A stretch of DNA of 5,372 nt from Selenomonadaceae bacterium (GTDB lineage: Bacteria; Bacillota; Negativicutes; Selenomonadales; Selenomonadaceae): the NCBI GenBank assembly GCA_017453765.1, contig JAFTEG010000079.1, positions 1 through 5,372 on the forward strand. The letters are read 5' to 3'. The stretch's first letter is position 1. The number at the start of each line of letters is the position of its first letter. Positions 1-5,372 of this stretch are shown here, piece by piece. Position numbers and translations under genes: made by a program. The notes under the pieces are model-generated. The model was not told where the DNA came from. It did no database searches and saw only the letters and a program-made list of their open reading frames with translations.

Positions 1-1152
1 ATAATGATTATGTCCCTGCCTGTCCGCAACGAAGTAAAGATAATCCGTCGGCGCAGGATTCAGCACGGCTTCTATCGCGTCCATGCCGGGATTTGCAATA
101 GGTCCCGGCGGCAATCCCGCGTTTTTGTACGTGTTGTAAGGCGACTCAATTTCCGTGTCCTCAATCGTTAAATCTTCTTTCGGCTCGTCAAGCAGGTATT
201 GTAAGCTTGCGTCGGTCTGCAACGGCATATTCAATTTCAAGCGCTTAAGAAAAACCTGCGCGACAATCGCTCTGTCTTCGGGGTAGCGAACTTCCCTTTC
301 AACAAGCGACGCAAGCGTAGTTAAATCGTACAGCGACAAGCCCAACTCTTTAGCCTTTTCACGCATTGCAGGCGTTACGCGCTTGTCAAATTCTCCCGCC
401 ATCATTTTCAAAATATCTTCAATCGACGTGTCACTTTCCACCGAATATGTTTCAGGGAAGAGAAAACCTTCCGCCGCGTATCGTACATTTTTATGTTTGC
501 GCATATAGCCGTACGGCGCAAAATTCTCCGCCGCCTTCAAAAAATCTTCCTTGTCGATAAGGTCAAGACTGTACAGACGCTCGGCAATTTCCTTGACGCC
601 GAAACCTTCGGGAATTGTGAAACGTACGAGATATTTTTCGCCGGTTAAAAGTTTTGCGAAAACGTCCTCATCATTCATACCGGTGTAAAAAACGTACGTG
701 CCGGGTTTAAGCTGTCCGTCGTAACTGCGCAGTCTTGAAACGATTCTGAATTTTAAACTGCTGGCAATTACTTCCTTCGCCTCAAGGATATCGGCAATTT
801 CGGCGGTGGACATACCTTCACTGATTTTAACGTGTACGCGCTTGCCTTCGTCCTCTTCATAAGTTTGCGGGTGCAGTTCACTTTGCGGCTTTATTGCGAA
901 CGGGTCGACGAAGATTAAAACCGCGCCGACTATCGCAATGCAAAAAATTAGCCCGCCGATTATTGATAAAATAAATTTCCAAGACACTTCTGCAAAAAGA
1001 GATTTAAGCCACTTGAAAGGCGCCAGTAAAATGCCGACAAGCCTTGACGCGATATTTTTTTTGCCGGCACTTCGACTGCCTAAGTTGCTTATGTTCGTCA
1101 CTTTCTTGTTAGAGTTAGATTTTTTACCTGAGTTGAAAAATGGAAATTTCAT
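1..1152 (-). CDS. mltG: Endolytic murein transglycosylase MltG (YceG family), 3' end beyond window
   Basis: MltG cleaves nascent peptidoglycan strands at the outer face of the cytoplasmic membrane, releasing them from the synthesis machinery and so setting glycan length. The 384 codons read open from the ATG at 1152 to the left edge. A basic cytoplasmic N-terminus (about residues 1-57) is followed by one membrane segment (about 59-82), a LysM-like part (about 105-175), and the catalytic domain. The motif ASLVERE gives the catalytic Glu at 285, followed by LQTDASLQYLL (311-321) and the conserved stretch SPYNTYKNAGLPPGPIANPG (337-356). The last visible residues, YFVAD then HNHY, are close to the usual C-terminus, so probably only a few tens of residues are missing. 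The gene starts 8 bp after the DUF1292 stop, with only a weak purine-rich ribosome site; an in-frame TAA at 1165-1167 excludes a longer start. It is very likely cotranscribed with the genes upstream of it. Confidence 0.95.
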   Translation of the reverse strand, partial: MKFPFFNSGKKSNSNKKVTNISNLGSRSAGKKNIASRLVGILLAPFKWLKSLFAEVSWKFILSIIGGLIFCIAIVGAVLIFVDPFAIKPQSELHPQTYEEDEGKRVHVKISEGMSTAEIADILEAKEVIASSLKFRIVSRLRSYDGQLKPGTYVFYTGMNDEDVFAKLLTGEKYLVRFTIPEGFGVKEIAERLYSLDLIDKEDFLKAAENFAPYGYMRKHKNVRYAAEGFLFPETYSVESDTSIEDILKMMAGEFDKRVTPAMREKAKELGLSLYDLTTLASLVEREVRYPEDRAIVAQVFLKRLKLNMPLQTDASLQYLLDEPKEDLTIEDTEIESPYNTYKNAGLPPGPIANPGMDAIEAVLNPAPTDYLYFVADRQGHNHY

Positions 1153-1160
1153 TTTCCCGC

Positions 1161-1598
1161 TTACTTAAGGTCTTCGTCTTCGTCAAAATCATCAAAAACC
1201 ATTTCGTCATACGCCTTTTGCACGGCGTCAAATTCTTCGTCAGTCGGCTCCACGTAAATATCTTCGCCGTTTTCGTCTTGAACGATTTTGGCAATGATAA
1301 CGTCGCCGTCTTCGCAGCCGCACTCACAGCCTTCATGGTCGTGGTGGTGACCGCCGCAACATTCATGATCATGGTCGGGAATTTCAACAAGCAGAGCAAA
1401 ATCTTGATCGCCTACGGGAATAATCATTTGCTCGACGTAGTAATAAGAGTTGCCTTCTTCGTCCTGCATTTCAACTACAACGTCGCCGAAATCTTCGTCG
1501 TCGTAATTATCCTCGTCGATATCCTCTTCATCAACGTCAACCTCGACGTCCGGAATTTCCTTTGAAACATTTTCTTCAATATTTTTTTTCTTAGCCAT
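1161..1598 (-). CDS. DUF1292 (YrzB-like) acidic protein with a Cys/His-rich insert
   Basis: This is a 145-residue, very acidic, soluble protein with no signal peptide or membrane segment. Its function is unknown. The DUF1292 pattern is visible in two halves: EMQDEEGNSYYYVEQMI then FALLVEI (about 43-73), and VIIAKIVQDENGEDIYVEP then EEFDAVQKAYDE (about 100-132). Family members such as B. subtilis YrzB are around 90 residues. The extra length here is an Asp/Glu-rich N-terminus (about 8-37) and an insert at 76-95 with Cys 80, 81, 91, 93, 95 and His 76, 78, 84, 85, 86, 88, which looks metal-binding. The ATG at 1598 has AGGAG eight bases upstream, right beside the repeat array. The ruvX - DUF1292 - mltG order is common in Bacillota. 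Family assignment is good; metal binding is inferred from composition only. Confidence 0.88.
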   Translation of the reverse strand: MAKKKNIEENVSKEIPDVEVDVDEEDIDEDNYDDEDFGDVVVEMQDEEGNSYYYVEQMIIPVGDQDFALLVEIPDHDHECCGGHHHDHEGCECGCEDGDVIIAKIVQDENGEDIYVEPTDEEFDAVQKAYDEMVFDDFDEDEDLK

Positions 1599-1615: not shown

Positions 1616-1710
1616 TAGATCGCTAGATCGATAGTGACTAGATCGATAGTGACTAGATCGCTAGATCGATAGTGACTAGATCGATAGTGACTAGATCGAT
1701 AAATCGATAG
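1616..1710. repeat. Tandem repeat array with 38-bp higher-order unit (8+15+15)
   Basis: The ruvX-DUF1292 spacer is almost entirely repeat. The order is an 8-mer TAGATCGC, then the 15-mer TAGATCGATAGTGAC twice, and this 38-bp set is repeated exactly (1616-1653 and 1654-1691). A decayed tail (1692-1710) follows, running up to the ruvX stop. The 15-mer itself reads as TAGATCGA plus TAGTGAC, so the basic step is 7-8 bp starting with TAG. It contains many GATC and ATCGAT sites. The array lies in the 5' leader of the DUF1292 message and ends just before its ribosome binding site. Confidence 0.95.
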
Positions 1711-1711
1711 T

Positions 1712-2137
1712 TTATAGATTGTTAGTCGGCAAACCGTCAAGATAGCCTTGCAAAATGTAAACCGCCGCCATTTTGTCAATAACCTTTTTGCGCTTTTTGC
1801 GACTCACGTCCGCCGCGATTAAAGATTTTTCAGCTGCAACGGTGCTTAATCTTTCGTCCCAAAAAATTTGATTTACGGCAGGATACGCCGCCTGAACTTT
1901 CGCCGCAAATTTTCTGACCAATTCGCAACGTTCGCCTTCCGTGCCGTTCATATGTTTTGGCAGACCGATTATCAGCGTTTCGACTTCGTATTGTGAAATT
2001 AAATCGCCGAGTTCCTTAACGTCATTTTTGTTGGACGTACGCTGAATGGTTTTGACGCCCTGCGCGGTAAAGCCCAAAGGATCGCTTACGGCAATGCCAA
2101 TGGTTTTGTCGCCGATATCAAGTGAAAGGTATCTCAA
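1712..2137 (-). CDS. ruvX: RuvX/YqgF family RNase H-fold nuclease (16S rRNA 5'-end processing / Holliday junction resolvase homologue)
   Basis: YqgF (RuvX) is an RNase H-fold protein. In E. coli it acts in maturation of the 16S rRNA 5' end and was also proposed as a Holliday junction resolvase. The product has 141 residues, the usual length. The visible motifs are [15 protein letters not shown] (6-20, Asp7), [11 protein letters not shown] (58-68), [11 protein letters not shown] (93-103, Asp94/Glu95) and [18 protein letters not shown] (117-134, Asp121). The acidic set Asp7, Glu95 and Asp121 is intact, so it should be active. The start is a TTG overlapping the ireB stop as TTGA, with GGAG eight bases upstream inside the ireB end. 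This points to translational coupling with ireB. The 3' end runs into the tandem array. Confidence 0.95.
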
Positions 2138-2394
2138 CTTTTTTTCTCCAAATGATTTAAATACGTTCGCACGAGTTCTTCCAAAAGTTCATCGCGTTCA
2201 ACCTTTCGGATTTTACTGCGTGCATCAAGGTGGCTTGTAATGTACGCGGGGTCGCCGCTTAAAAGGTAGCCTACCAGTTGGTGTACCGGATTGTAGCCTT
2301 TTTCGTTCATCGCCTGATACGCCGTCTTTATGACTTTTTCAGCGCGGTTTTCTTCCGAACCCAAACTGAAAGTCATCGTTTCATCACTAACCAC
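2134..2394 (-). CDS. ireB: IreB family regulatory phosphoprotein (DUF965/YrzL)
   Basis: In Enterococcus faecalis, IreB is a small cytoplasmic substrate of the PASTA Ser/Thr kinase IreK and a negative regulator of cephalosporin resistance. B. subtilis YrzL is a homologue. This protein has 86 residues, the normal size, with the family core [20 protein letters not shown] (31-50), then [19 protein letters not shown] (58-76). The N-terminus SDETMTF lines up with the enterococcal phosphosite region TDETVRF, placing Ser3 and Thr6 at the reported threonines; phosphorylation here is an inference. The start is GTG at 2394, chosen because a near-perfect ribosome site, GGAGGTGA, ends a few bases upstream. 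Its stop overlaps the ruvX start by 4 nt. The usual upstream neighbour alaS is not here; asd takes its place. Confidence 0.93.
2146..2149 (-). promoter_or_regulatory. Ribosome binding site of ruvX (TTG start)
   Basis: GGAG lies inside the last codons of ireB, eight bases before the TTG at 2137-2135. It supports the non-ATG start and coupled translation, as no in-frame ATG lies near it. Confidence 0.7.
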
Positions 2395-2411: not shown

Positions 2412-2467
2412 AGCTTGGAGCTTAGAGCTTAGAGACTCTTCACTCCTAACTCTTCACTCTTCACTAA
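2412..2467. repeat. Degenerate 7-bp repeat array, asd-ireB junction
   Basis: Eight units follow each other in strict 7-bp phase: AGCTTGG, AGCTTAG, AGCTTAG, AGACTCT, TCACTCC, TAACTCT, TCACTCT, TCACTAA. The array fills nearly all of the asd-ireB spacer and extends 14 bp into asd, so the last asd codons (Ser-Glu-Glu) and the TGA stop at 2454-2456 are made of repeat. On the asd coding strand almost every unit holds TGA, TAG or TAA. Its right half is an inverted copy of the array on the other side of asd. Confidence 0.9.
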
Positions 2468-3479
2468 TCAACTTTTCTGCAATCTGCAACGCATTGAGCG
2501 CCGCGCCTTTACGAATTTGGTCGCCGCAAACCCAAAAATTCAAGCCGTGTTCAACTGAATAATCTTTGCGCAGTCTGCCGACTTCCACATTATCTTTGCC
2601 GGACGTCTCCAAAGGCTGAGGGTAAATCATTTCGGCGGGATTATCGCGCACCGTGACGCCTTCAAAATTTTCAAGCGCCTTCCGCGCAGATTCGGCGCTG
2701 ACTTCGTCGTAAAATTCCACGTTGACTGATTCGGCATGACTTCTGTAAACCGGTACGCGCACCGTCGTAGCCGTAATTTTCATGTCGGCATCTTCCATAA
2801 TTTTACGCGTCTCGTCAATCATTTTCATTTCTTCTTTTGTATAATCATTGTCCATGAAAATATCAATCTGCGGAAGAAGGTTGGACGCAATTTGATAGTG
2901 TTTGTCCAAAGACGCGACGGGTAAAATTTTTGCTTGCGGCGTTTTACCTTCGGCTAAATCTTCAAGCTGCGTTTTAAGCTCGTCCATACCCTCACGCCCT
3001 GCGCCGCTTACAGCTTGGTACGTAGAAACAACAACGCGCTTAATTTTTGCAAGGTCGTACAGCGGCTTAAGCGCCATAACCATGATAATCGTTGAGCAAT
3101 TCGGATTGGCGATAATGCCTTTGTGTTTGGCGATAGCTTGCGGATTTACTTCCGGCACTACAAGCGGGACGTCGGGATCCATTCTGTACGTGCTGGAATT
3201 GTCGATAACCACAGCACCGGCTTTAACTGCGGCGGGACCGAAAAGTTTACTTGCCTTGCCGCCTGCAAAAAGTGCAATGTCAACGCCGTCAAAAGAATTT
3301 TCCGTAGTTTCTTCAACCGTGTATTCTTTGCCCATAAAATTTATTTTTTTACCGGCAGATCGCGCAGAGGCAAGCATTTTTAAATTTGCGTATGGAAAAT
3401 TCCGCTCCTCAATTAATTTTAAAAATTCCTGTCCTACGGCGCCGGTAACTCCGACTATTGCCAAATTTACTTTTTTCAT
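2454..3479 (-). CDS. asd: Aspartate-semialdehyde dehydrogenase
   Basis: Asd reduces L-aspartyl phosphate to aspartate semialdehyde with NADPH, the branch point to diaminopimelate/lysine and to threonine and methionine. The product has 341 residues, typical of the Gram-positive-type enzyme. The nucleotide-binding start reads GVTGAVGQ (10-17). The catalytic cysteine is Cys128 in NPNCSTI, Gln155 lies in STYQAVSGAG, and the substrate Arg241 and acid-base His248 sit in RVPVYRSHAES. The ATG at 3479 has an AAGGAAG ribosome site. dapB lies 111 bp upstream and catalyses a later step of the same pathway. The C-terminus reads normally to IAEKLI and then ends SEE, encoded by the heptamer array, so the native end may have been replaced by repeat. 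The enzyme appears intact. Confidence 0.97.
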   Translation of the reverse strand: MKKVNLAIVGVTGAVGQEFLKLIEERNFPYANLKMLASARSAGKKINFMGKEYTVEETTENSFDGVDIALFAGGKASKLFGPAAVKAGAVVIDNSSTYRMDPDVPLVVPEVNPQAIAKHKGIIANPNCSTIIMVMALKPLYDLAKIKRVVVSTYQAVSGAGREGMDELKTQLEDLAEGKTPQAKILPVASLDKHYQIASNLLPQIDIFMDNDYTKEEMKMIDETRKIMEDADMKITATTVRVPVYRSHAESVNVEFYDEVSAESARKALENFEGVTVRDNPAEMIYPQPLETSGKDNVEVGRLRKDYSVEHGLNFWVCGDQIRKGAALNALQIAEKLISEE

Positions 3480-3500
3480 GTTTACTTCCTTTCGGTGGTT

Positions 3501-3598
3501 AGTTAAGAGTGAAGAGTTAGGAGTTAGGAGTGAAGAGGGTTCTAACCCCTAACCCCTAATTCCTAGCCCCTAGCCCTTAATACCTCTTCCCTAATCCA
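3501..3598. repeat. Degenerate 7-bp repeat array, dapB-asd junction
   Basis: Fourteen consecutive units keep an exact 7-bp phase. They change in kind along the array: AGTTAAG, AGTGAAG, AGTTAGG twice, AGTGAAG, AGGGTTC, then TAACCCC twice, TAATTCC, TAGCCCC, TAGCCCT, TAATACC, TCTTCCC, TAATCCA. It fills nearly the whole spacer between dapB and asd and crosses the dapB stop (3591-3593). The two halves are complementary: 3517-3528 can pair with 3548-3559 with one mismatch, giving a long hairpin in the transcript. The first half is an inverted copy of the array at 2436-2461. Confidence 0.93.
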
Positions 3599-4355
3599 AC
3601 AATTTATCAAGACCGATTGTCAAGCCCTGAAGTGAACGAACTTTTTTGCACGCAAGCAACACGCCCGGCATAAATGAATCACGTCCGGTAGAATCGTGCC
3701 GAATTGTCAAAGTCTGTCCCAAGCCGCCGAAAATAACTTCTTGATGAGCGACGTAGCCCGGCAACCTTACGCTGTGAATTCTAATGCCGTCGTAATCGGC
3801 GCCGCGAACATTTTTAAGCCGCTCCACTTCGTCGGGGTGACCTTGCTTGTGAGAGGGACGAACTTCAGAAATCATCTTCGCGGTAAGTTCCGCCGTGCCG
3901 CTGGGCGCGTCAAGTTTTTTGTCGTGGTGCAACTCGATAATTTCAACGTCCGGCATGTACTTTGCAACCTGCTTTGAAATTAACATCATAAGCACGGCGC
4001 CTATTGCAAAATTCGGCGCAATGAATGCGGGAGTTTGAAATTTTTCTGCCGCCGCACGAATTTTTTCTTTCGCGTCGTCACTCAAGCCCGTTGTACCGAC
4101 TACCGGCGAAACTTTTTTTTCAAGCGCCGTCATTACGTTTTTGAAAACGGAATCGGGACGCGTGAAGTCAACCATTACATCGGGTTTGTGCAGTTCAAGT
4201 GCCGCGTCAAGATTTTTTTCGACTTTCAAGCCGGCAACTTCGCCGTCGAACACGTCAACCGCGCCAACAAGTTCCAATTCCGAATCATTTTTCACCGCGT
4301 CCGCTACGGTACGTCCCATTCTGCCGAGTGCGCCGCTTACCAAAACTTTTATCAA
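3591..4355 (-). CDS. dapB: 4-hydroxy-tetrahydrodipicolinate reductase (dihydrodipicolinate reductase)
   Basis: DapB reduces the dapA product with NAD(P)H to tetrahydrodipicolinate on the way to diaminopimelate and lysine. The product has 254 residues, slightly short but within the family range. The Rossmann motif SGALGRMGR is at 7-15, VDFTRPDS at 62-69, VVGTTGLS at 85-92, and APNFAIGA at 113-120. The signature ELHHDKKLDAPSGTA (141-155) has His143 and Lys147 in the places of the E. coli catalytic His159 and Lys163. The start is TTG at 4355, supported by GGAGG eight bases upstream; the first in-frame ATG is residue 13, inside the Rossmann motif, and is excluded. The stop lies in a heptamer array. 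It is the first gene after the minus-strand promoter at 4486-4514, and asd follows. Confidence 0.97.
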   Translation of the reverse strand: MIKVLVSGALGRMGRTVADAVKNDSELELVGAVDVFDGEVAGLKVEKNLDAALELHKPDVMVDFTRPDSVFKNVMTALEKKVSPVVGTTGLSDDAKEKIRAAAEKFQTPAFIAPNFAIGAVLMMLISKQVAKYMPDVEIIELHHDKKLDAPSGTAELTAKMISEVRPSHKQGHPDEVERLKNVRGADYDGIRIHSVRLPGYVAHQEVIFGGLGQTLTIRHDSTGRDSFMPGVLLACKKVRSLQGLTIGLDKLLD

Positions 4356-4363
4356 TTAATACG

Positions 4364-4368
4364 CCTCC
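4364..4368 (-). promoter_or_regulatory. Ribosome binding site of dapB (TTG start)
   Basis: GGAGG lies eight bases before the TTG at 4355-4353 and immediately after the heptamer array in the direction of transcription. It decides the non-ATG start. Confidence 0.8.
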
Positions 4369-4370
4369 GT

Positions 4371-4424
4371 TTAGCTTTTAGCGATTAGCTTTTAGCCGGT
4401 AACTGTCAGCGATTAGTTTTTAAT
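4371..4424. repeat. Degenerate 7-bp repeat array in the dapB leader
   Basis: Pentamers recur at exact 7-bp steps from 4371: TTAGC four times, then GTAAC, TCAGC, TTAGT, TTAAT. After that the period fades, though TTAGC-like words recur to about 4497. On the dapB coding strand this gives TAA or similar about every seven bases. The array lies between the dapB promoter and its ribosome site, so it is transcribed as leader. Confidence 0.85.
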
Positions 4425-4441
4425 TACAAGATACCGGCTAA
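4392..4441 (-). repeat. 10-bp perfect inverted repeat in the dapB leader
   Basis: TTAGCCGGTA at 4392-4401 is exactly complementary to TACCGGCTAA at 4432-4441, with a 30-nt loop. The same arms also look like a direct repeat (CCGG, TAACTG). It could fold in the dapB leader RNA, or be an operator-like site, or simply be a product of repeat growth. There is no T-run, so it is not an intrinsic terminator. Confidence 0.6.
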
Positions 4442-4485
4442 CTGCTGATAAAAAAATTTATCGTTCAACTTTTAATTAACGGCTA

Positions 4486-4514
4486 ATTTTAGCTTATGGG
4501 CTTTTTCGCGTCAA
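4486..4514 (-). promoter_or_regulatory. Sigma-A-type promoter for dapB and downstream genes
   Basis: On the minus strand, TTGACG (4514-4509) is followed after exactly 17 bp by TAAAAT (4491-4486). Each box differs from consensus by one base. Transcription would start near 4479 and give a leader of roughly 125 nt containing the heptamer array. No other convincing promoter is seen upstream of asd or ireB, so dapB to mltG may form one transcript. Confidence 0.7.
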
Positions 4515-4585
4515 CAAATTTTAATCAATATTCGCGCAGGTTCATATTACGTAAAATGATTTTCGTGATATACTTTCAAAAAATA

Positions 4586-4614
4586 TTGCGAAAAAAATTT
4601 TGCTATGATATAAT
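4586..4614 (+). promoter_or_regulatory. Sigma-A-type promoter for rimP
   Basis: TTGCGA (4586-4591), a 17-bp spacer, and a perfect TATAAT (4609-4614) preceded by the extended TG motif at 4606-4607 make a strong rightward promoter. Transcription would begin near 4621, about 100 nt before rimP. A second extended -10 (TGA plus TATACT, 4569-4574) lies 40 bp upstream without a good -35 box. Confidence 0.8.
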
Positions 4615-4662
4615 CGCCGCGTTTAAAAATGAAAGGGCTGATTTTGTCCGAAAAGATTTGTT

Positions 4663-4690
4663 AGTGGAAGTGGGCGTGTGTCCACTTTTT
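4663..4690 (+). promoter_or_regulatory. Hairpin plus T-run in the rimP leader, candidate attenuator
   Basis: AAGTGGG (4668-4674) can pair with TCCACTT (4681-4687, one G-U pair) around a six-base loop, followed by a T-run to 4690, as in an intrinsic terminator. An overlapping alternative, AGTGGA (4663-4668) with TCCACT (4681-4686), uses the same right arm. The hairpin lies between the promoter and the rimP ribosome site, so it may set read-through into rimP. The stem is short and the T-run is only five, so termination would be partial. Confidence 0.55.
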
Positions 4691-4711
4691 AATATTGCGC
4701 AGAAAAAAATT

Positions 4712-4716
4712 GGAGG
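4712..4716 (+). promoter_or_regulatory. Ribosome binding site of rimP
   Basis: GGAGG lies seven bases before the ATG at 4724. It decides the rimP start against the much longer open frame that begins upstream. Confidence 0.85.
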
Positions 4717-4723
4717 TAATGCG

Positions 4724-5170
4724 ATGCCCGGTAAAATTGAAACGCGGGTTGAAGAATTGATGAAAAAAATTTTGGATGACACCGAATTTGAATTGGTCGA
4801 CACCGAATTTGTCAAGGAGAAGGATTGGTACTTGAGAGTTTTCGTCGACAAAATGGGCGGCATTGATTTGGACGATTGCCAACTTTTGAGCGAAAGACTC
4901 GGCAACCTTTTGGACGACGAATTGGTAATTGACGGTCCTTACATTTTGGAAGTGTCATCGCCGGGACTTGACCGCGTGCTTAAAAAGGACAAAGATTTTC
5001 TGCGCGAAGCAGGAAAGGCGGTTGACGTGACACTTTACGCGCCGATTGACGATACTAAAAATTTTACCGGCACGCTTGAACGCCGCGACAAAGATTTTTT
5101 GTACTTGAAAGAATTTGAACCCATACCGCGTGAAAAAATTTCGCAAGTCAGATTGCATATTGAATTTTAG
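4724..5170 (+). CDS. rimP: Ribosome maturation factor RimP
   Basis: RimP binds the 30S subunit and is needed for its late maturation. The product has 148 residues, the usual size. The N-terminal alpha/beta domain includes YLRVFVDK (36-43) and the family signature VSSPGLDR (77-84) in EVSSPGLDRVLKKD; the C-terminal SH3-like domain (about 95-148) includes FTGTLERRDKDFLYL. The ATG at 4724 is fixed by GGAGG and by the family N-terminus; codons upstream of it in the same frame lie in promoter and leader. rimP normally leads a nusA - infB operon, but no nusA start is seen in the 202 bp after its stop. Its TAG stop is the first element of a short heptamer array. Confidence 0.95.
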   Translation: MPGKIETRVEELMKKILDDTEFELVDTEFVKEKDWYLRVFVDKMGGIDLDDCQLLSERLGNLLDDELVIDGPYILEVSSPGLDRVLKKDKDFLREAGKAVDVTLYAPIDDTKNFTGTLERRDKDFLYLKEFEPIPREKISQVRLHIEF

Positions 5171-5199
5171 GGATTAGGGAAGAGATCTACCAGCTAGGG
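5167..5199. repeat. Short 7-bp repeat array at the rimP stop
   Basis: TTAGG occurs at 5167 and 5174 and CTAGG at 5195, all in 7-bp phase, with decayed units between them. The first TTAGG contains the rimP stop codon. The 14 bases 5171-5184 (GGATTAGGGAAGAG) are an exact inverted copy of 3584-3597 at the dapB stop, showing that the arrays belong to one family. Confidence 0.75.
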
Positions 5200-5260
5200 C
5201 GTGTTGAATAAAGTCAAAATTTAAAACGTTACAAATTACGTAACAGCCGCAATTATGGCG

Positions 5261-5317
5261 GGGCGCACAAGGACGTGCGCCCGTCCGCGCAAGTCGCCGG
5301 ACGCGACTTCTGCGGAC
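5261..5317. repeat. GC-rich double hairpin block
   Basis: Two hairpins sit side by side. The first is GGGCGCAC (5261-5268) with GTGCGCCC (5275-5282). The second has an outer stem GTCCGC/GCGGAC (5283-5288, 5312-5317), a small internal loop, and an inner stem AAGTCGC/GCGACTT (5291-5297, 5303-5309). I count 45 G or C among the 60 bases 5258-5317, far above the flanking A/T-rich sequence. There is no T-run, so this is not a classical terminator. It may be part of a dispersed palindromic repeat together with the hairpin at 5331. Confidence 0.8.
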
Positions 5318-5330
5318 ATGTTTCTTTTTG

Positions 5331-5361
5331 TTACTTTTTCTTTGCGCCAAAGAAAAAGTAA
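5331..5361. repeat. 14-bp perfect A/T-rich hairpin
   Basis: TTACTTTTTCTTTG (5331-5344) is exactly complementary to 5348-5361, with the loop CGC. T-rich sequence precedes it and A-rich sequence follows, so the pairing may continue weakly outward. Similar hairpins with a TTTCTTTG-GCGC-CAAAGAAA core are, to my memory, dispersed in many bacterial genomes; this copy has not been compared. An ATG at 5318 opens a small frame through the hairpin, which I do not regard as a gene. Confidence 0.8.
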
Positions 5362-5372
5362 GTTAAAAAACC

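Follow-up and report, generated by a model that had tools for sequence, protein, structure and literature searches.

Heptad arrays with a TAG core and inverted arms at gene junctions of a Selenomonadaceae genome

The window analyzed here is the whole of a 5,372-nt contig (JAFTEG010000079.1, GenBank assembly GCA_017453765.1) from a Selenomonadaceae bacterium, and several of its gene junctions carry tandem arrays of degenerate 7-bp units (heptads). The 7-nt periodicity of such arrays is far beyond chance in the intergenic DNA of this genome, and the unit is best written as TAG followed by four free bases in a first arm and as four free bases followed by CTA in a second, inverted arm; relatives share array sites, not units. 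We tentatively propose that the TAG-cored heptads start from the stop codon and extend outward by 7-nt slippage, that the second arm is added by snap-back copying, and that the resulting folded spacer is tolerated.

Excess of 7-nt phasing in intergenic DNA and a TAG core

Below, G labels genomes (G000 is the window's own genome and G041 a sister) and L labels loci of relatives. G000 is a draft genome of 2.09 Mb in 431 contigs, 69% complete, of which the window is contig 365; we sampled 80 of the 431 contigs plus the window (57 kb of N fall within the sample) and compared them with 54 loci of close relatives and 26 outgroup loci (Selenomonas, Anaerovibrio, Mitsuokella and other Selenomonadales), with genes called by an open reading frame (ORF) script, not a trained gene finder. 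The 222 intergenic pieces of the G000 sample hold 64 arrays at lag 7, 1 at lag 6 and 11 at lag 8, and 6 lag-7 arrays lie in coding DNA; across 20 rounds of dinucleotide shuffling, the mean number of lag-7 arrays is 0.05 and the maximum is 1. At least one array is present in 55 of the 222 pieces, compared to 35 of 457 from the close-relative loci, and none of the 271 intergenic pieces of the outgroup loci contains a lag-7 array. A first-pass annotation of the same DNA had attributed the arrays to one process with a preferred 7-bp step, as opposed to one amplified sequence, and this reading is supported by the genome-wide excess and by unit dialects that, among the matches listed, differ between genomes.

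The core was searched among all 64 triplets, counting pairs 7 nt apart in intergenic DNA with no motif preset. TAG comes first in G041 (199 pairs against a background of 7.8, that is, 25.6-fold) as well as in the relatives' loci, and CTA comes first in G007. Column agreement singles out TAG in G041 and G007 and places it level with AGT in G000; in G010 and the relatives' loci, TAG is not singled out by this measure. The four free bases beside TAG (or CTA) in each heptad, hereinafter N4, are highly diverse: G041 contains 48 different N4, with consecutive N4 identical in 18% of 295 cases, and units differ by genome among the matches listed (TAGCTGT in G006, TAGGAAT in G001, TAGGGAC in G004, TAGGAAC in G007). 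Units are of many kinds, and only some of them, such as TAGGGAT or TAGGGGC, carry runs of G. Distances between neighboring TAGs peak at 7 in every set, with a clear second peak at 8 in G000 (119 at 7, 38 at 8, 2 at 6 and 2 at 9) and one also in the relatives' loci; TAG triples at spacing 8 number 14 in G000, 16 in the relatives' loci and 0 in both G041 and G007.

Four TAGs at spacing 7 were found in 57 of the 66 genomes of the genus, with no match in the remaining 9. Matches to the TAG pattern far exceed those to the reversed pattern in G041 (2565 vs 47), G007 (736 vs 1) and G000 (501 vs 32). Elsewhere in the family, which has 29 further genera, 13 of 123 genomes yielded a match, with at most 7 matches each; an order-wide search at completeness of at least 90% gave matches in 23 of the 108 genomes retrieved, all 108 belonging to this family. 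Four genomes (G011, G018, G072 and G077) show unusually many matches to the reversed control, GATNNNN, which in three of them exceed the genome's own TAGNNNN count; therefore, other heptad cores may dominate there.

The closest relatives of the window by Asd are uncultured rumen Selenomonadaceae or Selenomonadales, at no more than 96% identity, in agreement with the Firmicute host suggested from sequence alone. Quinella sp. 1Q7 (83%) and 2Q5 (82%) are among the best Asd matches, and the pattern counts and listed places of their genomes are identical to those of G004 and G003, respectively, two members of the window's genus, so that the genus is probably Quinella. The genome of L031, the locus closest to the window by Asd, has the same pattern counts as G041.

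A credible though rather unlikely explanation is neutral polymerase slippage with a 7-nt preference; under this view, the arrays lie between stop and Shine-Dalgarno sequence only because insertions in other places are removed, and the hairpins are a side effect. The paucity of arrays in coding DNA is in line with it, as are two points of Mrazek (2007) quoted in the parts of PMC4679880 and PMC4692102 covered here: that, of all long simple repeats, 7-mers are the most numerous in most genomes surveyed, and that a 7-nt contact of the polymerase has been proposed. However, neutral slippage predicts neither a kept TAG core with free N4 nor the 91:5 arm order and the matching of own arms described next.

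Order, pairing and predicted folding of the two arms

In a tally of 1314 junctions, each locus being counted once, 295 bear arrays. The order TAG-then-CTA, or purine-then-pyrimidine, is seen at 91 of these (76 co-directional, 6 convergent and 9 divergent) and the reverse order at 5 (3, 0 and 2, respectively), with one arm only at 163 co-directional, 28 convergent and 12 divergent junctions. An initial survey of G000 and the relatives' loci by purine content showed the same polarity, purine-then-pyrimidine in 29 cases and the reverse in 1. Upstream of asd in L107 lies a pyrimidine-then-purine inverted repeat without 7-nt phase, with the arm order reversed.

The arms of one junction match each other. 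When own arm pairs were compared with arms exchanged between junctions within a genome (5000 permutations), own-arm pairing was matched by 21 permutations for 66 TAG pairs (145 for G041 alone within this set), by 21 for 23 purine-arm pairs and by 81 for an earlier set of 42 TAG pairs; the sharing of N4 between the arms of one junction, beyond that of swapped arms, was matched by 6. The fold survey covered co-directional junctions of 45-220 nt, with array-free ones sampled at 40%. Median z of the predicted fold is -3.08 for two-arm junctions (n = 68; z < -2 in 50), -1.12 for one-arm junctions (n = 112; 36) and -0.63 for array-free junctions (n = 150; 28). In the predicted folds, the path from the stop codon to the Shine-Dalgarno sequence takes 15 steps compared to 22 in shuffles at two-arm junctions (p = 3e-5), 18 compared to 24 at one-arm junctions (p = 8e-4) and 22 compared to 24 at array-free ones (p = 0.10); these p-values, and that of the binomial stop-register test below, overstate independence because the arrays are related to one another.

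Given such hairpins, it has to be considered whether selection at gene ends maintains the inverted arrays as terminators of transcription, as attenuators or as mRNA-stabilizing hairpins, which we deem quite unlikely. The predicted hairpins are strong, including those at the 6 convergent junctions, and transcript stability has been proposed as a role for the hairpins of cyanobacterial short tandemly repeated repetitive (STRR) sequences in the part of PMC2670836 covered here. However, at the dapB-asd junction of the window, the one junction considered for this point, the hairpin is followed by a Shine-Dalgarno sequence, with no U run such as an intrinsic terminator has, and five orthologous dapB-asd junctions do without a hairpin. 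A known structured RNA family was rejected, with no Rfam match in the window at gathering score. Loss of the hairpin nuclease SbcCD was likewise rejected as a general permissive cause: SbcD is matched in 65 of the 66 genomes, 63 of them above cut-off; among array-rich genomes, the match is above cut-off in G041 and G007 and below it in G000 (69% complete) and G010 (80% complete).

Register with the stop codon

The location of arrays at gene junctions had been recognized in the first-pass annotation, but their tendency to anchor on the stop codon went unnoticed. Among downstream-only TAG chains that start no more than 25 nt after the stop, the stop itself being excluded, 69 of 112 share its 7-nt register, compared to 16 expected (binomial p = 1e-30, with kinship ignored). 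Of the in-register cases, 63 of 69 have TAG as the stop codon, compared to 11 of the 43 out-of-register cases and 85 of 709 genes without arrays; the arrays thus bear on stop codon choice, because TAG rises where they sit in register. TAG is found at -7 of the stop in only 16 of the 69 in-register chains, so that most of these arrays start at the stop and do not extend back into the gene. The heptad directly preceding the stop has an above-chance likeness to the unit that follows (0.37-0.52, against 0.23-0.38 further upstream), and single arms conform to the two-arm layout: at one-arm junctions, a TAG arm is nearer the stop in 34 of 42 cases and a CTA arm in 13 of 43. Even among genes free of arrays, G000 often has TAG stops (31 of 129), compared to 19 of 337 in the relatives' loci.

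The arrays might also be imagined as a fence of stop codons that halts ribosomes reading through the first stop, whatever their frame: the 7-nt spacing places stops in every frame, and sense arms tend to start directly after the stop codon. This appears most improbable, because the triplet replacing TAG in sense chains is CAG (21) more often than TAA (12) and TGA (3) together, among 474 middle triplets, and antisense chains are similar (CAG 21, TAA 11, among 523).

Array sites in relatives

Neither of the two outcomes that the first-pass annotation named as counting against it occurred: a lag-7 excess extends to other intergenic regions, and related genomes have differing arrays at the same junctions. 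The C-terminus of DapB is conserved (GLDK[LI][LM]D; one residue more in L033), and the stop codon is where the dapB-asd array starts in the window, L031 and L034. In L083, a two-arm array of 8-nt units directly follows the stop (GATAGTTA ... ACACTAAC), and L036 has a short array that starts 24 nt further in. No array is present in L035, L037, L038, L043 and L080, where the gap from stop to start is 10-16 nt and the stops are TAA or TGA. Among 21 junctions matched between G000 and G041, arrays are found in both genomes at 4, in G000 only at 2 and in neither at 15; for 26 junctions matched with other relatives, the respective counts are 6, 6 and 14, with 11 of these 12 array-bearing rows being the window's own two junctions set against several relatives. 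The class with arrays in G000 only is favored in these comparisons because the G000 side included 30 loci fetched for carrying arrays.

At the junction shared by L181 and L207, six TAGs occupy equal offsets, and the N4 between them agree at 6 of 20 positions, about the chance level; the window and L031 have three TAG offsets in common, with N4 agreement at 2 of 8. Two junctions of L141 that are 10 kb apart (4481-4525 and 14521-14564) have about 45 nt of identical array and Shine-Dalgarno flank, suggestive of conversion between the arrays or of transfer from one to the other.

Retention of TAG alongside differing N4 at one site (L181/L207) is what might be expected if TAG/CTA at 7-8 nt formed an array of putative protein-binding sites, for a DNA or RNA regulator or an architectural protein, with selection keeping TAG. 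The core likewise persists where units are 8 nt apart, in G000 and the relatives' loci. Nevertheless, this explanation appears unlikely given how hugely copy numbers vary in one genus, from no match in 9 of the 66 genomes to 2565.

Arrays and genes of the window

A sliding scan of the window at lag 7 gives 38 positions with at least 20 of 28 matches. Of the lags from 3 to 13, no other gives any; positions of this kind also occur at lags 14, 15, 21 and 23. Three arrays stand out at lag 7 (2412-2467, 3501-3598 and 4371-4424), as the first-pass annotation had reported; its fourth (5167-5199) is weak, with about 2.5 units in phase. That annotation missed a fifth array (1616-1711), and its strict 7-bp step is not fully accurate, because there the core is kept at spacings of 7 and 8. 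The individual elements are as follows.

3542..3593, minus strand: first (5') arm of the dapB-asd array, TAGGGAA GAGGTAT TAAGGGC TAGGGGC TAGGAAT TAGGGGT TAGGGGT TAG, in-phase heptads starting with the TAG stop codon of dapB (3591-3593)
3501..3537, minus strand: second (3') arm of the dapB-asd array, CTCTTCA CTCCTAA CTCCTAA CTCTTCA CTCTTAA CT, ending before the asd Shine-Dalgarno sequence
3485..3491, minus strand: Shine-Dalgarno-like AAGGAAG of asd, closely 3' of the second arm (from the sequence and the ORF-script pick)
2435..2469, minus strand: first arm of the asd-ireB array, ATTAGTG AAGAGTG AAGAGTT AGGAGTG AAGAGT, overlapping the last codons of asd and its TGA stop (2454-2456)
2412..2434, minus strand: second arm of the asd-ireB array, CTCTAAG CTCTAAG CTCCAAG CT, before the ireB Shine-Dalgarno sequence
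1616..1711, minus strand: CTA-core array between ruvX/yqgF and the ORF at 1161-1598, CTATCGAT CTAGTCA ...
4370..4422, plus strand: TTTAGCT / TTAGCGA heptads in the divergent dapB/rimP region
5165..5184, plus strand: array at the rimP end, TTTTAG GGATTAG GGAAGAG, the TAG stop (5168-5170) and two in-phase units

In the dapB-asd transcript, TTAGGGG-like heptads run from the dapB stop to a short loop, from which CTCCTAA-like heptads lead to the asd Shine-Dalgarno sequence; the predicted hairpin has a folding energy of -40.6 kcal/mol compared to a shuffle mean of -31.1 (z = -2.89). The change of unit kind at 3536-3543 noted in the first-pass annotation marks the turning point of an inverted repeat whose two heptad arms are partly paired. 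The asd-ireB junction has the same two-arm build (z = -2.08). In the dapB/rimP region, a predicted stem spans 4384-4449 (TTAGCCGGTA..TACCGGCTAA), with z = -3.04 on the plus strand and -2.08 on the minus strand. Folding is weak for the array at 1616-1711 (z = -1.11), whose CTA spacings are 7, 16, 7, 8, 7, 8, 8, 7, 8, 7, 8 and 8; Tandem Repeats Finder reports periods of 15, 23 and 38 there. The weak rimP array (5165-5184) folds no better than shuffles (z = +1.43).

Profile search against NCBIfam named six of the seven genes of the window, which are listed here.

1-1152, minus strand: mltG
1161-1598, minus strand: ORF with no NCBIfam match
1712-2137, minus strand: ruvX/yqgF
2134-2394, minus strand: IreB-family protein (ireB)
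2454-3479, minus strand: asd
3591-4355, minus strand: dapB
4724-5170, plus strand: rimP (best match, below that model's own cut-off)

Directly after the rimP array, a dispersed element with the end TA|GGGCGTGTTGA occupies positions 5192-5372 of the window (start at about 5192-5197) and recurs in 12 of the 80 sampled G000 contigs at 78-96% identity. In G000, 6 of 8 matches have TA before the GGGCGTGTTGA end motif, as expected of a TA target. The abutment of this element on an array brings up an origin from mobile elements, either by transposition of the REP/RAYT type or as excision footprints of a TA-target insertion element. We consider such an origin very improbable: a Y1/RAYT transposase is matched in 7 of the 66 draft genomes (including the array-rich G010) and in none of G000, G041 and G007, and the diversity of N4 in G041 is not derivable from one element end. 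RAYT/REP was rejected, with no transposase match in 59 of the 66 genomes; excision footprints were considered and left as a weak candidate.

A tentative model and the points against it

According to the model that we tentatively favor, a duplication step of 7 nt, sometimes 8 nt, would start at the stop codon, and later copying within the array would spread TAG over the first unit. The second arm would arise when synthesis switches template to the first arm (snap-back copying), and under this model the arm order is fixed because the second arm is copied from the first. The predicted folded spacer would keep the stop and the next Shine-Dalgarno sequence close, whether by tolerance or by selection; cells would tolerate an insert between co-directional genes since its folded arms hold these two elements near each other, and translation of the second gene of the operon may thereby stay linked to that of the first.

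Several observations weigh against this model. Plain slippage leaves the retention of TAG, while N4 turn over, without explanation; TAG might be kept by a recognition step in growth or by a binding protein. In G000, TAG is enriched 16-fold but is only the seventh triplet, with GAG and AGG at 27-fold. The stop register is not shared by 43 of the 112 TAG chains, and in the window the asd array follows a TGA stop, not TAG. One-arm arrays account for 163 of the 239 array-bearing co-directional junctions, compared to 76 with two arms in the stated order, and the 9 two-arm arrays at divergent junctions stand where there is no translational coupling at all. The earlier arm-swap test for G041 alone was unclear (589 of 5000), and the locus L031 was counted twice in both the fold survey and the 66-pair arm-swap test. 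Somewhat better folding than in shuffles is seen at array-free junctions too, and the effect on the distance is modest: shuffles with an equal or shorter path average 34% for two-arm and 49% for array-free junctions. Finally, the TAG agreement between L181 and L207 concerns one of four shared junctions, and two of the four have no common TAG offset.

A variant in which growth is specific to TAG and seeded by stops, converting the stop to TAG, adding TAGNNNN downstream and writing the complementary arm, seems to us rather doubtful; if true, it would mean that a bacterium continually makes new folded intergenic DNA out of its own stop codons.

Comparison with known heptameric repeats

The papers cited in this section were covered in part, and the statements below refer to those parts. 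Rehm et al. (2015; PMC4692102) describe heptamer repeats of the form GGGAATC or GGGGA(C/T)T in Xanthomonas and Nostoc, which, like the arrays analyzed here, are degenerate 7-bp intergenic arrays; there, species differ in the length and sequence of the arrays. Xanthomonas has 70-75 inverted convergent pairs that could fold into stem-loops and Nostoc has few, and the G-rich strand is the coding strand within 50 bp after stops, including overlap with the stop, and the non-coding strand before starts. The arrays of the window's genus share with these repeats the purine-rich strand after the stop and the inverted pairs. They differ in that their units do not fit GGGANTN, whereas the unit of Rehm et al. 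is GGGANTN or GGGGA(C/T)T, with an emphasis on G-quadruplexes and in other lineages, and the covered part of that paper makes no mention of a stop register, a TAG core or 8-bp relatives.

STRR sequences usually consist of one or a few fixed unit sequences, whereas the arrays analyzed here, with 48 N4 in G041 and, among the matches listed, dialects by genome, have no fixed unit. The resemblance to STRR proposed in the first-pass annotation nevertheless stands: in both cases, tandem degenerate 7-bp units are dispersed in intergenic DNA and, at part of the junctions, a predicted hairpin-forming pair lies between co-directional genes. STRR are cyanobacterial (in the hupS-hupL spacer, for example, units are usually of 7 bp and a hairpin is predicted, which has been suggested to act in transcript stability or translational coupling), and anchoring on the stop or a kept core with free bases is not described in the covered part of that source (PMC2670836).

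The TAACTGA repeats of Beggiatoaceae, some cyanobacteria and Bacteroidetes (MacGregor 2015; PMC4679880) are likewise intergenic heptamers that contain a stop triplet, and between two Cyanothece strains they differ mostly by indels in 7-nt increments. They are one particular unit, located in BOGUAY mostly just before start codons, with no particular predicted RNA structure and with related heptamers rarely or never repeated there; the arrays of the window's genus lack an invariant TAACTGA unit.

REP/REPIN are intergenic palindromes associated with a RAYT transposase. The arrays have no single conserved palindrome, and RAYT is unmatched in most genomes of the genus.

The literature matches listed include none on heptad arrays in Quinella or Selenomonadaceae, and in the covered part of the Quinella genome paper (PMC9585023) the word "intergenic" does not appear and the single use of "repeat" refers to a washing step. 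As far as these listings go, the lineage, the TAG core with free N4 and the stop register are new, as are the quantified arm order, the 8-nt relatives and the empty or differently filled orthologous sites. Heptameric repeats of bacteria have long been noted and their role is unsettled: in the parts covered, Rehm et al. (PMC4692102) leave the function open and MacGregor (PMC4679880) suggests translational regulation without a test. A genus with none to thousands of matches, a kept core, an anchor and empty sites makes the growth step, the seed and the effect on operon translation testable and, if borne out, would show the de novo making of bacterial intergenic DNA.

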